This document shows positions 12,142 to 22,285 of a stretch of DNA of 45,158 bases, piece after piece. Where the stretch lies: positions 1 through 45,158 of the forward strand of contig MGQA01000010.1 in NCBI GenBank assembly GCA_001797665.1, written 5' to 3'. The position numbers and the translations under genes are program-made. The number at the start of each line of letters is the position of its first letter. Position 1 is the stretch's first letter. The notes beneath the pieces were generated by a model that saw nothing but the letters and a program-made list of their open reading frames with translations, was not told where the DNA came from and searched no databases. This stretch comes from Deltaproteobacteria bacterium GWF2_42_12. GTDB taxonomy: Bacteria; Desulfobacterota; GWC2-55-46; UBA9637.

Positions 12142-12171
12142 TTGACACTGCCAATAAATCTCGTGTAGTCT
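12142..12171 (+). promoter_or_regulatory. Sigma70-type promoter upstream of riboswitch
   Basis: TTGACA (12142-12147), 18 nt, TAGTCT (12166-12171) with extended TG; expected TSS just before the conserved AAAGGGGAGTAG. Confidence 0.6.
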
Positions 12172-12177
12172 TATGAA

Positions 12178-12312
12178 CAAAAGGGGAGTAGTAGCCTGCT
12201 TTAAGCAGGTGTGAGGAATCGTCAACACGGCTCTTTATGAGTCCGGTTCCTCTGGTTTCTTATGAACATACGAGACCTTTACCTGGTTTTATCCGGGTAA
12301 AGGTCTTTTTTT
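12178..12312 (+). ncRNA. Candidate yybP-ykoY (Mn2+-sensing) riboswitch with expression-platform terminator
   Basis: AAAGGGGAGTAGTAGCC...TCGTCAACACGGC...CATACGAGACCTTTACC then GACCTTTACC..GGGTAAAGGTC + T run. Confidence 0.82.
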
Positions 12313-12313
12313 T
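12274..12313 (+). terminator. Intrinsic terminator / expression platform of riboswitch
   Basis: GACCTTTACCTGGTTTTATCCGGGTAAAGGTC followed by TTTTTTTTT. Confidence 0.85.
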
Positions 12314-12371
12314 TGGGCTTTTACCGCGCCCGATACCCCAACCTTCTTTTTTTGGAGTGAAGATAAATAAA

Positions 12372-13019
12372 ATGGATAAACTCTATAAAGGCATCCACAA
12401 ATTTCGTGAATCATATTTTGCGAGGGAAGAGGAGTTCTTTAAAGGCCTTTCCCATACTCAGACGCCAGAAGTTCTTTTTATTACATGTTCTGATTCACGG
12501 GTTGATCCGAATCTCGTAACCCAGAGCAGGCCCGGAGAGCTTTTTATCGTAAGAAATGTAGGGAATATCATCCCTCCTTATGATGCTATAAAGGATAAAA
12601 ATAGTGTTGCCGCAGCAATTGAATTTGCCGTAATGGTCTTAAAGATAAAGGATATCATCGTGTGCGGACACTCTAATTGCGGCGCAATCGAGGCGCTTTA
12701 CAGGGCTGAACAGGATTTTGATAAAATGCCTCATCTCAAGGACTGGTTAAAGATAGCTTCTCCGGTCAAGGATATAGCCACCCTGTTTTTTCCTGAGATT
12801 TCTGGGGAATCCAGCCAAAGGGTTGTAGAGACAGCAAATATACTGGTCCAGTTAAAAAATATAGAGACATACCCTTTTGTAGTAGAGGCATTGAATAATG
12901 GGGCTATTCACCTTCACGGCTGGTATTATGATATTGGAACAGGAGAGGTGTATTCGTATAATCCGGTCAATGGCGCGTTTAAACAGATAGTTTACAATAA
13001 AGAAAAGGAGGATGCGTAA
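12372..13019 (+). CDS. Beta-class carbonic anhydrase
   Basis: VLFITCSDSRVDPNLVTQSRPGELFIVRNVGNIIPP, ICGHSNCGAIEAL; start MDKLYKG at 12372 rather than the ORF-track start 12237. Confidence 0.95.
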   Translation: MDKLYKGIHKFRESYFAREEEFFKGLSHTQTPEVLFITCSDSRVDPNLVTQSRPGELFIVRNVGNIIPPYDAIKDKNSVAAAIEFAVMVLKIKDIIVCGHSNCGAIEALYRAEQDFDKMPHLKDWLKIASPVKDIATLFFPEISGESSQRVVETANILVQLKNIETYPFVVEALNNGAIHLHGWYYDIGTGEVYSYNPVNGAFKQIVYNKEKEDA

Positions 13020-13022
13020 ACC

Positions 13023-13049
13023 TCGTTAGAGAACAAGATTCTCTAACGG
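13023..13049. repeat. Stem-loop between carbonic anhydrase and SPFH genes
   Basis: TCGTTAGAGAACAAGATTCTCTAACGG inverted repeat. Confidence 0.6.
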
Positions 13050-13078
13050 GGTAAACCAAAAAAAGGAGGTAATAAAAA

Positions 13079-13933
13079 ATGTTTCAGAATCGTCAGGATC
13101 CAGATGTAGAAGAGATAATAAACAAGGTAAAGGGATTTGGAAAGCGCTTTGGCAAAGTCCCCATAATAATTGGGGCGCTCATTATTGTAATGCTGCTAAT
13201 GGGCGGGCAACCGTGGTCTATTGTGGGACCAGGGCAGAGAGGTGTTCTAATCAGGCTTGGGGCTGTGCAAAAAGGTGTATTTCAAGAAGGGTTGAACTTC
13301 AAAATGCCATTCATAGACAGAGTTGTAAGGGTGAATGTTCAGGTACAGAAAAATGAGGCAAAGGCCGAGGCAGCTTCGAAAGACCTTCAGATCATATCTA
13401 CAGTCATGGCCACAAATTATCACCTGATCCCGGAGGCAGTGGACGAGGTGTATCAAAAGATAGGGCTGGCCTTTGAGGACAAGGTAATCCAGCCTGCGGT
13501 GCAGGAGGTTATCAAGGCCGTGACAGCCAAATACACGGCAGAGGAATTGATAGCAAAGAGAGGCGAGGTTAAATCCGCCATACGGACAGAACTGACTGAC
13601 AGACTTGTAACCTTCAATATCAAGGTTGTAGAGGTATCAGTTGCGGATTTCAACTTCTCCAGGACGTTCAATGATGCAATTGAGGCAAAACAGGTGGCGG
13701 AACAGCAGGTTGCCAAGTCCAGGAATGAGTTGGAAAGGATAAAGGTGGAAAACGAACAGAAGATCAGTCAGGCAAAGGCAGAGGCTGAGGGGTTAAAGAT
13801 ACAGAGGCAGGAGATAACGGAATCCCTCCTGAAGCTCAGAGAGATTGAGAACCAGCGGAAGGCGATAGAAAAATGGGACGGGAAACTGCCGAGCGTAACA
13901 GGCGGGGCCATGCCATTTATACAGGTTAAGTGA
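13079..13933 (+). CDS. SPFH/prohibitin family protein
   Basis: 284 aa; GPGQRGVLIRLGAVQKGVFQEGLNFKMPFID, VEVSVADFNFSRTFNDAIEAKQVAEQQ; SD AAAGGAGG. Confidence 0.93.
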   Translation: MFQNRQDPDVEEIINKVKGFGKRFGKVPIIIGALIIVMLLMGGQPWSIVGPGQRGVLIRLGAVQKGVFQEGLNFKMPFIDRVVRVNVQVQKNEAKAEAASKDLQIISTVMATNYHLIPEAVDEVYQKIGLAFEDKVIQPAVQEVIKAVTAKYTAEELIAKRGEVKSAIRTELTDRLVTFNIKVVEVSVADFNFSRTFNDAIEAKQVAEQQVAKSRNELERIKVENEQKISQAKAEAEGLKIQRQEITESLLKLREIENQRKAIEKWDGKLPSVTGGAMPFIQVK

Positions 13934-13944
13934 TTGCAGCTAAG

Positions 13945-13975
13945 AAAAAGGCAGACCAATTGGTCTGCCTTTTTT
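13945..13975. terminator. Bidirectional-looking intrinsic terminator
   Basis: AAAAAGGCAGACC-AATT-GGTCTGCCTTTTTT. Confidence 0.9.
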
Positions 13976-14032: not shown

Positions 14033-14338
14033 ATGCCAGACAAACCAAGCGAACAAGAACAAGAGTATTTTGCACGAATAGAATACGAACAGAGAAAAAA
14101 GTCAGAGGAAGAAAAACAAAGAAGGCTTGCGGAAGAAGAGAAAAAGAGACTCAAAGAACTCCATCATATGAGATGCCCTAAATGCGGTATGCAACTGATA
14201 GAGATTGATTATAGCAGTATGAAGGTGGACAAGTGTTCAAACTGCGAAGGCATATGGCTTGATGCCGGAGAACTTGAGGCTATATCAAGGCTTGAGAAAA
14301 AAGGCCTTGATAAGTTATTCAGTGTATTCAAAAGATAG
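14033..14338 (+). CDS. zf-TFIIB domain protein
   Basis: MRCPKCGMQLIEIDYSSMKVDKCSNCEGIWLDAGELEAI; probable start ATG 14033. Confidence 0.87.
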   Translation: MPDKPSEQEQEYFARIEYEQRKKSEEEKQRRLAEEEKKRLKELHHMRCPKCGMQLIEIDYSSMKVDKCSNCEGIWLDAGELEAISRLEKKGLDKLFSVFKR

Positions 14339-14420: not shown

Positions 14421-17144
14421 ATGCGCTGGCATCAAAAAGAAATAAATGGAGTCATTGAAGATTTAAAGTCATCTCTTCAGGGGCTTTCTCCAGAAGAGGC
14501 ACGGAAACGGCTCGCAGAATACGGACCGAATGAGCTAAAAGAAGGCAAGAAGAGGACTTCTTTGATGATGCTCCTTGACCAGTTCAAGGACTTTATGATT
14601 GTTGTCCTGATAGCGGCGGCTGTAATTGCAGGTGCGATAGGAGAGGCGGCTGATACTATTGCCATCGTTGCTATAGTTGTCATAAATGCTATCATCGGTT
14701 TTATTCAGGAATACAGGGCTGAAAAGGCTATGGAGGCCCTGAAGCTCATGGCATCGCCAACGGCGACCGTACTCAGATCAAATAACCCAATCACGATCCC
14801 TTCTTCAGAAATAGTCCCCGGAGACATTGTCATCCTTGAAGCAGGGAGGATTGTCCCGGCTGATTTACGGCTTGCGGATACAGCCCAACTCAAGATTGAA
14901 GAGGCAGCCCTTACCGGAGAATCTATCCCTATAGAAAAATCTACAGCGCAGATTCACGATGAGATGATACCACTGGGAGATAGAAAGAATATTGCGTATA
15001 AAGGGACGATTGTGAGATACGGCAGAGGCAAAGGTATTACCGTAGCTACGGGCATGGAAACTGAACTTGGGCGCATTGCCACAATGTTACAGGCAGAGGA
15101 AGAGGTTAAAACCCCGCTTCAAAAACGGCTGGCTGTTGTTGGCAAAAGACTTGCAATCGCTGCCTTGGGTATCTGTGCCATAGTCTTTGCAGTCGGTATT
15201 ATGAGGGGCGAGCCGCCTGTGCTCATGTTTCTCACAGCAATAAGCCTCGCAGTGGCAGCCATACCTGAGGCGCTCCCTGCAGTAGTGACCATCTCCCTGG
15301 CATTGGGCGCACGGAAATTGGTTAAGCAGAATGCACTCATCAGAAAGCTTCCTGCAGTAGAGACCCTCGGTTCAGTAACCTATATCTGTTCTGATAAAAC
15401 AGGAACTTTGACTCTCAACAAGATGTCAGTTGAGGAGATATATGTTGATGGAAGATTAGTCAAGGGGACTGTCCCAGATTTACGGACGGAGCGCAGCGGA
15501 GTTCCCGAAGCAACTACGTTGTTCGGGACAGGCTCCGAATCGGGACTGTCCCCGGAAAAGACGATTCACAACCTCATGCTTGCTATGGCCCTAAGCAACG
15601 ATGCCGCAAGGGATTCCGATGGGAACCTTATCGGAGATCCAACAGAGACAGCTATCCTATCGGCGGCTGAAGGGGCAGGCTTTGATAAAAAGCATCTGGA
15701 GGAGAGTTATCCGAGGATTGCTGAAATTCCATTTGATTCTGATAGGAAGATGATGACGACATTTCATAAAATCCCCGCCATTCCCCCTTTGGAGACAGAT
15801 TTCAAATCTGTCCCCAGTGGTGCGGGGGGGTTTATCTCTTTTACCAAAGGAGGAGTAGAGGTCCTTCTTGATAGAAGTAAGGATATACTCTTTTCATCTG
15901 GAGTACAGGAGATAGATAGAGAGGAGTTAGTAAGAGAGAGCGAAAGAATGGCTGCTGACGGGCTAAGGGTCCTTGCCATAGGGATGAGGAGGTGGGAAGC
16001 TGTTCCTGAAGTAATGATCCCTGAGGAAGTAGAGAACAGGCTTACCATCCTAGGTTTTGTAGGCATCATGGACCCTCCGAGGGAAGAGGTTAAAGAGGCA
16101 GTTGCGTTATGCAAATCCGCCGGAATAAAACCTGTTATGATTACAGGAGACCATCCGATCACTGCGAGGGCAATAGCAAGGAGGCTTGGCATTATAGATG
16201 ACGGCGGAGAGGTCATAACAGGAACGCATCTCGAAAGGCTTCCTATGGATGAGTTCGAGAAGAAGGTGGAAGAGATAAGGGTCTATGCCAGGGTAGCCCC
16301 TGAGCAGAAGCTGAAGATCGTAAAGGCCCTCCAGGACAAGGGACAGTTCGTCGCCATGACAGGAGACGGAGTTAATGATGCGCCTGCGTTAAAGAGGGCG
16401 GATATCGGCGTTGCCATGGGAATAACAGGCACAGACGTCGCCAAAGAGGCGGCTCATATGATTCTCCTTGACGATAATTTTGTCACAATTGTAGCTACTG
16501 TCAGAGAAGGGAGAAGGATATACGACAATATAAGAAAATTTTTCAAATATCTTCTTACGAGCAATTCAGGTGAGATATGGACTCTGTTTCTTGCGCCGTT
16601 TCTTGGCCTCCCCATACCGCTTATGCCGATTCATATACTCTGGATAAACCTTGTTACTGATGGCGCGCCTGCCCTTGCCCTGACTGTTGAGCCGCCCGAA
16701 GGAGATGTTATGAAAAGAAGGCCAAGGCGGCCGCAGGAAGGTTTATTTGCAGGAGGCATGTGGCAGCATATACTCTGGGTTGGCCTCCTCATGGCAGGAA
16801 TCACCTTATTGACACAGGCGTGGGCAATAACAACAGAACATACTCATTGGCAGACTATGGTATTTACTGTCTTGTGTCTTTCTCAGTTTGGCCATGTGCT
16901 GGCAATCCGCTCAGAAAAGGAATCTCTTTTTACTCAGGGAATATTCTCAAACAAGCCTTTATTGGGGGCGGTAGTTTTGGCCTTTGCTCTTCAGATGGCA
17001 ACCATATATATGCCATTTCTGCAGCCTGTCTTCAAGACAGAGCCGCTAACGGTAAGCGAGCTTATAATTTGCCTCCTCCTCTCATCAGTCGTCTTTGTCG
17101 CTGTTGAGATAGAAAAATATTTTAAACGAAGGATAATGAAATAG
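14421..17144 (+). CDS. Cation-translocating P-type ATPase (Ca2+/Mn2+ type, P2)
   Basis: 907 aa; CSDKTGTLTLNKM phosphorylation motif, TGESIP, MTGDGVNDAPALKRADIGVAMG. Confidence 0.95.
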   Translation: MRWHQKEINGVIEDLKSSLQGLSPEEARKRLAEYGPNELKEGKKRTSLMMLLDQFKDFMIVVLIAAAVIAGAIGEAADTIAIVAIVVINAIIGFIQEYRAEKAMEALKLMASPTATVLRSNNPITIPSSEIVPGDIVILEAGRIVPADLRLADTAQLKIEEAALTGESIPIEKSTAQIHDEMIPLGDRKNIAYKGTIVRYGRGKGITVATGMETELGRIATMLQAEEEVKTPLQKRLAVVGKRLAIAALGICAIVFAVGIMRGEPPVLMFLTAISLAVAAIPEALPAVVTISLALGARKLVKQNALIRKLPAVETLGSVTYICSDKTGTLTLNKMSVEEIYVDGRLVKGTVPDLRTERSGVPEATTLFGTGSESGLSPEKTIHNLMLAMALSNDAARDSDGNLIGDPTETAILSAAEGAGFDKKHLEESYPRIAEIPFDSDRKMMTTFHKIPAIPPLETDFKSVPSGAGGFISFTKGGVEVLLDRSKDILFSSGVQEIDREELVRESERMAADGLRVLAIGMRRWEAVPEVMIPEEVENRLTILGFVGIMDPPREEVKEAVALCKSAGIKPVMITGDHPITARAIARRLGIIDDGGEVITGTHLERLPMDEFEKKVEEIRVYARVAPEQKLKIVKALQDKGQFVAMTGDGVNDAPALKRADIGVAMGITGTDVAKEAAHMILLDDNFVTIVATVREGRRIYDNIRKFFKYLLTSNSGEIWTLFLAPFLGLPIPLMPIHILWINLVTDGAPALALTVEPPEGDVMKRRPRRPQEGLFAGGMWQHILWVGLLMAGITLLTQAWAITTEHTHWQTMVFTVLCLSQFGHVLAIRSEKESLFTQGIFSNKPLLGAVVLAFALQMATIYMPFLQPVFKTEPLTVSELIICLLLSSVVFVAVEIEKYFKRRIMK
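15465..15553. repeat. Nested palindromic insertion in P-ATPase ORF (1)
   Basis: CGGAGTTCCCGAAGCAACTACGTTGTTCGGGACAGGCTCCG, flanked by GGGACTGTCCC repeats; encodes DLRTERSGVPEATTLFGTGSESGL. Confidence 0.75.
15773..15829. repeat. Nested palindromic insertion in P-ATPase ORF (2)
   Basis: CCCCGC...GGAGACAGATTT-CAAATCTGTCCCC...GCGGGG; encodes AIPPLETDFKSVPSGAGG. Confidence 0.8.
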
Positions 17145-21501: not shown

Positions 21502-22184
21502 TTTTTAAATTCCTTCCTTATCTCATCCGGTCTTCCGCAGGTCATCTCTCCTTCTGTGCATTTACCTGTGCTTACGCAACCAGGGCCTGCGGCACTAAAT
21601 ATAAAAGGTGCCTCCTTTTTTACCAAAGAGAGCATCCTCTTTGCCATATCCCGTATCTCCCACTGTGCCCTTTCGCATGTGCGCAGCCCAAAAAAATGTA
21701 GAAGCTCTCTGGCATTCATAGTAGCGATAATCTTTGTAGTTGCAGCGTTGGGAAGTATATACCTTGCATCCTCTGCTGGTATGCCTGCATCGAGCATCTC
21801 CTTGTAAAAACTATACAGAGATTCTATTGTGTCAGAAAACCTCTTTTCATTTTTCGCATCCTTCTTTATTGAGGATGGGATTACAAACTCAGGCTCTTTA
21901 AATTTAACATACCGCTGACTCTGCTGGGAATACGATGCAAGGCGATGCCTCACGAGCTGATGAGAGGTAGCCCTTGAGATGCCCTCTATACCAAATGTGA
22001 AGCTCGCATGCTCCAATACAGAGAGGTGTCCCATCTTGATAATCTTACCCAGGAACTTCTCATACGAGACGCCTTTTGCCTTATCCTCTAATTGGGAGAT
22101 ATTACTGTCCGAATAGCAGAGTTTGGCAGCCAAGACTATAGTCTTTTCAGGGTTTGGGGTAAAGTTAAGGAGGGTTACCTTCAT
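21495..22184 (-). CDS. thyX: FAD-dependent thymidylate synthase
   Basis: ThyX motif RHRLASYSQQSQRYV; LEHASFTFGIEGISRATSHQLVRHR. Confidence 0.96.
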   Translation of the reverse strand: MKVTLLNFTPNPEKTIVLAAKLCYSDSNISQLEDKAKGVSYEKFLGKIIKMGHLSVLEHASFTFGIEGISRATSHQLVRHRLASYSQQSQRYVKFKEPEFVIPSSIKKDAKNEKRFSDTIESLYSFYKEMLDAGIPAEDARYILPNAATTKIIATMNARELLHFFGLRTCERAQWEIRDMAKRMLSLVKKEAPFIFSAAGPGCVSTGKCTEGEMTCGRPDEIRKEFKKI

Positions 22185-22285
22185 CCCGTTAGACCTCCTT
22201 TGAAAACAAGTTGTAACATCAGGCTTTCTGCTACCATCGGTTTTATTGGGAAACGGTCATAATGATGGATAGGTCTAACGGGATT
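22182..22285 (-). promoter_or_regulatory. thyX leader: inverted repeat spanning SD and start codon
   Basis: ATCCCGTTAGACC (22183-22195) and GGTCTAACGGGAT (22272-22284), perfect 13 bp; includes end of GGAGG and the AU of AUG. Confidence 0.6.

Follow-up and report, generated by a model that had tools for sequence, protein, structure and literature searches.

A yybP-ykoY-family riboswitch, predicted to sense Mn2+, precedes a beta-carbonic anhydrase gene in a deltaproteobacterial genome and recurs ahead of carbonic anhydrase genes in Nitrospirota

Positions 12177-12316 of the window (i.e., the whole 45,158-nt stretch of Deltaproteobacteria bacterium GWF2_42_12 DNA analyzed here) very probably constitute a Mn2+-sensing riboswitch of the yybP-ykoY family that acts as a transcriptional ON switch for genes encoding a beta-carbonic anhydrase (CA) and an SPFH/Band-7 protein (Table 1). 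CA is apparently an unreported and recurrent target of a standard yybP-ykoY riboswitch; a literature search, whose reach stopped short of the gene lists in the primary papers, returned no paper tying a CA to this RNA.

Table 1. Positions of the riboswitch elements and neighboring genes in the window
Feature	Position	Strand	Basis or detail
Putative promoter	12142-12171	+	TTGACA 12142-12147, 18-nt spacer, TAGTCT 12166-12171
yybP-ykoY (Mn2+) riboswitch aptamer	12177-12283	+	R1; RF00080; covariation in 106 homologues
P1 switch helix, 5' strand AAAGG	12180-12184	+	Pairs with 12276-12280; R1 alignment, homologues
L1 consensus GGGGAGUAG	12183-12191	+	98-100% conservation per position across 106 homologues
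P2 hairpin	12194-12210	+	Fold; longer than in the Nitrospirota copies
P3.1, L3, P3.2	12213-12252	+	P3.1 is 12213-12218 with 12247-12252
Predicted Mn-ligand adenosine A12224	12224	+	Invariant in 106/106 homologues and 13/13 CA-linked copies
P4 hairpin GUUU...GAAC	12255-12267	+	R1 alignment and fold
Intrinsic terminator	12272-12316	+	15-bp stem 12272-12307 plus T tract; terminator scan
Beta-carbonic anhydrase	12372-13019	+	Pfam PF00484 (Pro_CA), 168.5 bits; start ATG 12372
SPFH/Band-7 protein	13079-13933	+	Pfam PF01145
Second intrinsic terminator	13944-13975	+	Terminator scan; 3' of the SPFH gene
Zn-ribbon protein, usual P-ATPase neighbor	14033-14338	+	Pfam PF13453
Type IIA (PMR1/SERCA-like) P-type ATPase	14421-17144	+	NCBIfam TIGR01522, 716 bits

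Sequence and structure both place the aptamer in the yybP-ykoY family. The hallmark motifs that the initial annotation had pointed out are all present in the leader, which carries GGGGAGUAG, UCGUCA..ACG, CCGG, and CAUACGAGACCUUU. The covariance-model comparison that it had proposed also bore out the assignment: RF00080 matched the leader with an E value of 1.7e-6, although the score of 29.5 bits fell below the gathering score of 45 bits. A second model, R1, was built from nine Nitrospirota copies with the window excluded. It gave a single match in the window (39.7 bits, E = 8.3e-10), and the same site was its sole match across the whole genome. R1 also recovered two validated Mn riboswitches of Escherichia coli, alx (29.5 bits) and mntP (24.4 bits), both with lower scores than that of the window. 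By comparison, RF00080 (Rfam 15 version, 177 positions) yielded no match in a search of the whole genome, and an Rfam search of the window at the gathering cutoff returned only a tRNA. The same model detected only 2 of 20 R1-type loci at an E value of 0.01, scored E. coli mntP at 41.6 bits, which is likewise below the cutoff, and did not recover alx at an E-value limit of 0.1 (E. coli loci L231 and L232). Because one validated riboswitch falls below 45 bits and another is missed, the gathering score does not define the family; it is a curator's cutoff and not a defining trait of yybP-ykoY RNAs. We thus attribute the shortfall of the window to the insensitivity of RF00080 and do not count it as evidence against membership.

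The leader folds more stably than shuffled sequences (z = -5.9), and P1, P2, P3.1, P3.2, and P4 surround a four-way junction with few broken pairs in the window. The first two G residues of the L1 consensus also pair within P1, L3 is composed of 12219-12229 (UCGUCA..ACG) and 12243-12246 (CCGG), and the 3' hallmark CAUACGAGACCUUU occupies 12267-12280. The same long P2 is found at three other loci (L092, L096, and L098). The R1 alignment of 106 homologues had 94.3% of its cells paired, with both-side changes in 20 of 23 pairs. Double-change cells numbered 301, compared with 88.5 +/- 9.7 after shuffling and no more than 44 with slid partners; these counts lean toward the structure, as the alignment was fitted to it. 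The conserved L1/L3 core includes the adenosine A12224, a predicted Mn contact that is equivalent to A41 of Lactococcus lactis and A48 of Xanthomonas oryzae, the N7 ligand of Mn2+ (PMC6754395).

The promoter had been described as good in the initial annotation, and this assessment stood only in part. The TTGACA hexamer is perfect and the TTGACA...TAGTCT arrangement likewise precedes the aptamers of four other loci (L002, L007, L008, and L009), but the -10 hexamer is weak and absent from the list produced by the promoter scan. The proposal that the terminator is built from the GACCUUUACC segment was confirmed. The 5' arm of the terminator contains the 3' strand of P1, so that 12276-12280 are used by both and the expression platform is exclusive with P1. 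This overlap, with a T-rich tail, was also seen in 71 of the 91 Nitrospirota copies with enough sequence. In energy minimization, the unconstrained fold, which forms the terminator, reached -54.7 kcal/mol, and the fold with P1 forced reached -41.6 kcal/mol. Energy minimization alone thus favors the terminator, and switching would depend on cotranscriptional folding and ion binding. Without Mn2+, the GACCUUUACC segment would fold as the terminator stem and the transcript would end. With Mn2+, L1 and L3 would dock around the ion at A12224 and stabilize P1, which would keep the segment out of the terminator and allow RNA polymerase to continue into the CA and SPFH genes. From the shared bases and their match to the antitermination mechanism shown for the L. 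lactis switch (PMC11087558), we infer the Mn-ON direction; Mn2+ as the ligand and cotranscription of the two genes are predicted in the same sense.

Three alternative explanations of the leader were considered. That it is another RNA element, or resembles the family by chance, has a negligible probability: the failure to attain the Rfam gathering score would favor it, but the E values from both models, the covarying homologues, and the recovery of alx and mntP by R1 speak against it. Chance resemblance in particular was ruled out by the R1 match, the covariation, and that recovery. It is very improbable that the leader is a decayed riboswitch and that the CA is expressed mostly from another promoter. 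The weak, unlisted -10 hexamer is in line with decay, whereas the core positions and helices are all intact, the terminator is strong and carries a T tract, and the interval from the terminator to the CA start contains no listed promoter. Somewhat less remote, though still improbable, is an aptamer that has kept the yybP-ykoY fold but has a different ligand, either another divalent ion or Mn2+ together with Ca2+, to which the CA would respond. Some yybP variants are suspected to respond to other divalent ions (PMC7266159), a Mn/Ca-sensing riboswitch has been described before the P-type ATPase gene mgtA of Streptococcus pneumoniae (PMC11434433), and a Ca/Mn-type ATPase is encoded nearby in the window. 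Against this, the near-invariant L1/L3 positions, including the N7 ligand, are the same in 13 CA-linked copies as in the others; the one exception is a copy with C in place of U at the position matching 12189.

The gene directly downstream of the leader encodes a beta-CA, as had been claimed. Its zinc-site residues are C39, D41, R43, H100, and C103 (Cys-x-Asp-x-Arg and His-x-x-Cys), and its best match among solved structures, 5swc, is a carbonic anhydrase. The suggestion that a Mn-sensitive or metal-promiscuous enzyme might explain the arrangement found no support in these ordinary residues, and a CA with an altered metal site was likewise not supported by the alignment to 5swc. The second terminator probably limits the riboswitch transcript to the CA and SPFH genes; because it intervenes, control of the P-ATPase gene by this transcript is doubtful. 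The Zn-ribbon protein has relatives at four loci (L007, L008, L010, and L096). The P-ATPase possesses P-type ATPase domains and is PMR1/SERCA-like, with a TIGR01522 score below the equivalog cutoff (798). Its closest solved structures are those of lmo0841 (LMCA1) and ATP2C1, and it is likely a Ca/Mn pump. A palindromic repeat, CCCCGTTAGA...TCTAACGGGG, recurs in the window more often than expected by chance (13021-13051; 22184-22283) and was also found at L010 (4428), L014 (5899), L003 (4865-4902), and L209 (4192). The L010 copy is located within the riboswitch, where it substitutes for the 3' strand of P1; the repeat may thus be a mobile element that broke the L010 switch.

The pairing of riboswitch and CA is not confined to the window. 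Among CA orthologues in public genomes, the same RNA was located directly upstream of the gene in several Nitrospirota metagenome-assembled genomes. R1 matched 70 of 396 Nitrospirota genomes, where the first gene after the switch mostly encoded a type IIA P-ATPase or an HtpX-like protein and more rarely TerC, UPF0016, SPFH, PGPGW, or CA. The genes behind homologous riboswitches include those of the accepted Mn regulon, namely, type IIA P-ATPase, TerC-like, and UPF0016-like genes. Close relatives of the CA in Nitrospirota started within about 300 nt behind a riboswitch in 10 of 24 cases, or in 12 when HtpX-first loci (G404 and G761) were included, and about half had no adjacent riboswitch. None of the 34 distant CA genes in the Nitrospirota draw lay behind one (Fisher's exact test, p = 4e-5 for 10 of 24 and 3e-6 for 12 of 24; the p values are indicative, since related genomes were compared and the tally was done by hand from the listed coordinates). 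The pairing is not due to chance, and in Nitrospirota CA is part of a recurrent gene set behind the riboswitch (HtpX, CA, SPFH, PGPGW, Zn-ribbon, and type IIA P-ATPase). Most genes of this set are also found behind the switch in the phylum of the window, in which 39 of 395 genomes carried the switch and the switch-CA pair was seen in the window alone. The CA had been called an unusual regulon member; it does lie directly behind the switch, but the Nitrospirota counts show that it is no lone oddity.

Several features of these loci were recorded in addition. The HtpX-like protein, a membrane M48 protease named from its sequence, is among the commonest first genes in both Nitrospirota and the phylum of the window (e.g., L025, L090, L095, L096, L151, L159, L209, and many others). 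A purE-like gene (AIR carboxylase family, identified by eye) lies immediately 5' of the CA gene at L010/L209 and L022, and the order at L209 is switch-HtpX-purE-CA. L012, L011/L225, L175, L183, and L212 contain two or three Mn riboswitches spaced by a few kilobases, with a different gene behind each; at L012 (5866 and 6728), one precedes the CA gene and one follows it.

The pairing apparently evolved more than once. On the CA tree, riboswitch linkage requires at least three to four label changes within Nitrospirota. The CA of the window groups with those of L001, L005, and L006 (support of 96/93), none of which has a switch directly upstream. The aptamer of the window shares 80% identity with that of G173, a genome of the same family, 77% with that of L096, 75% with that of L098, and at most 54% with all others. 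These 75-80%-identical aptamers of the same phylum precede ATPase or HtpX genes. A single older origin followed by losses is not favored, given the grouping with switch-less CAs and the affinity of the aptamer to ATPase/HtpX switches. The order in G173 is switch-PATPase-SPFH, which indicates that the CA in the lineage of the window occupies the slot of the G173 P-ATPase, independently of Nitrospirota. Compared with G173 (L233), the SPFH protein of the window is 91% identical and the P-ATPase 68%, a disparity that suggests that the Zn-ribbon/P-ATPase pair of the window was replaced or acquired. From these comparisons, the switch-CA pairing of the window looks to have arisen separately from that of Nitrospirota. 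The G173 arrangement, with the aptamer directly before the P-ATPase, would also accord with a real riboswitch whose proper target is the SPFH or P-ATPase gene, the CA being a passenger that landed between the switch and this target and for which Mn control is useless. We consider this explanation unlikely, because CA has come to lie behind the switch repeatedly in Nitrospirota, with differing intermediate genes and with a linkage above chance.

Compared with the yybP-ykoY (RF00080) structures from L. lactis yoaB and X. oryzae, the window has in common L1 (GGGGAGUAG), UCA(41) of L3, the 3' segment GAGACCUUU, the P1 switch helix overlapping a terminator, and the four-way junction. It differs in its long P2 and in its target, a beta-CA plus an SPFH protein and not an exporter directly. 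At the S. pneumoniae mgtA locus, too, a Mn riboswitch adjoins the gene of a P-type ATPase that is considered to transport Mn2+/Ca2+, whereas in the window the ATPase follows the CA, the SPFH protein, and the second terminator. R1 matches E. coli mntP and alx, as it does the window, and their Mn response is tied to alkaline pH (PMC9603457). However, their targets are exporters and not a CA, and the mntP switch is described as translational (PMC11647493), in contrast to the terminator platform of the window. Also comparable are the Nitrospirota riboswitch-CA-(SPFH)-ZnRibbon-PATPase loci (L002, L007, L008, and others), which have the CA directly behind the switch and the gene order of the window. 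L008 (G402) reproduces this order in full, and the CA gene is accompanied by Zn-ribbon and P-ATPase genes in G396, G401, and G405. The aptamers of the Nitrospirota loci are about 50% identical to that of the window and have a short P2, and their origin was probably separate.

The recurrent pairing beside Mn/Ca pump genes suggests a previously unreported link between Mn stress and CO2/bicarbonate chemistry. Type IIA pumps counter-transport protons. Our guess, which may well be wrong, is that the CA balances CO2, bicarbonate, and pH during Mn2+ (or Mn2+/Ca2+) overload and pumping by the neighboring type IIA ATPase. In E. coli, the cytoplasm becomes alkaline under Mn stress, and the mntP riboswitch binds Mn more tightly at alkaline pH (PMC9603457). 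The enzyme could buffer both this alkalinization and the proton counter-transport of the pump; alternative roles are the trapping of Mn as carbonate and compensation for a mismetallated CA. Slightly better placed, though still tentative, is the broader reading that induction of a CA by Mn2+ has been selected and has evolved convergently as an arm of bacterial Mn/Ca homeostasis, in which CO2/HCO3- interconversion is raised upon Mn2+ efflux for pH balance or carbonate trapping of Mn2+. If so, the pH need would come from the H+ counter-transport of the pump and from Mn-induced alkalinization.

For the family, these results indicate that the present RF00080 cutoff misses many Mn riboswitches in under-studied phyla, which would stay unannotated, and that beta-CA, HtpX-like, and SPFH proteins join the yybP-ykoY regulon, with genes that recur in the first or second place. 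That separate lineages have a CA following a Mn switch provides a direct and testable link from Mn2+ excess to CO2, bicarbonate, and pH handling, one that fits the alkalinization and mntP pH findings in E. coli (PMC9603457).
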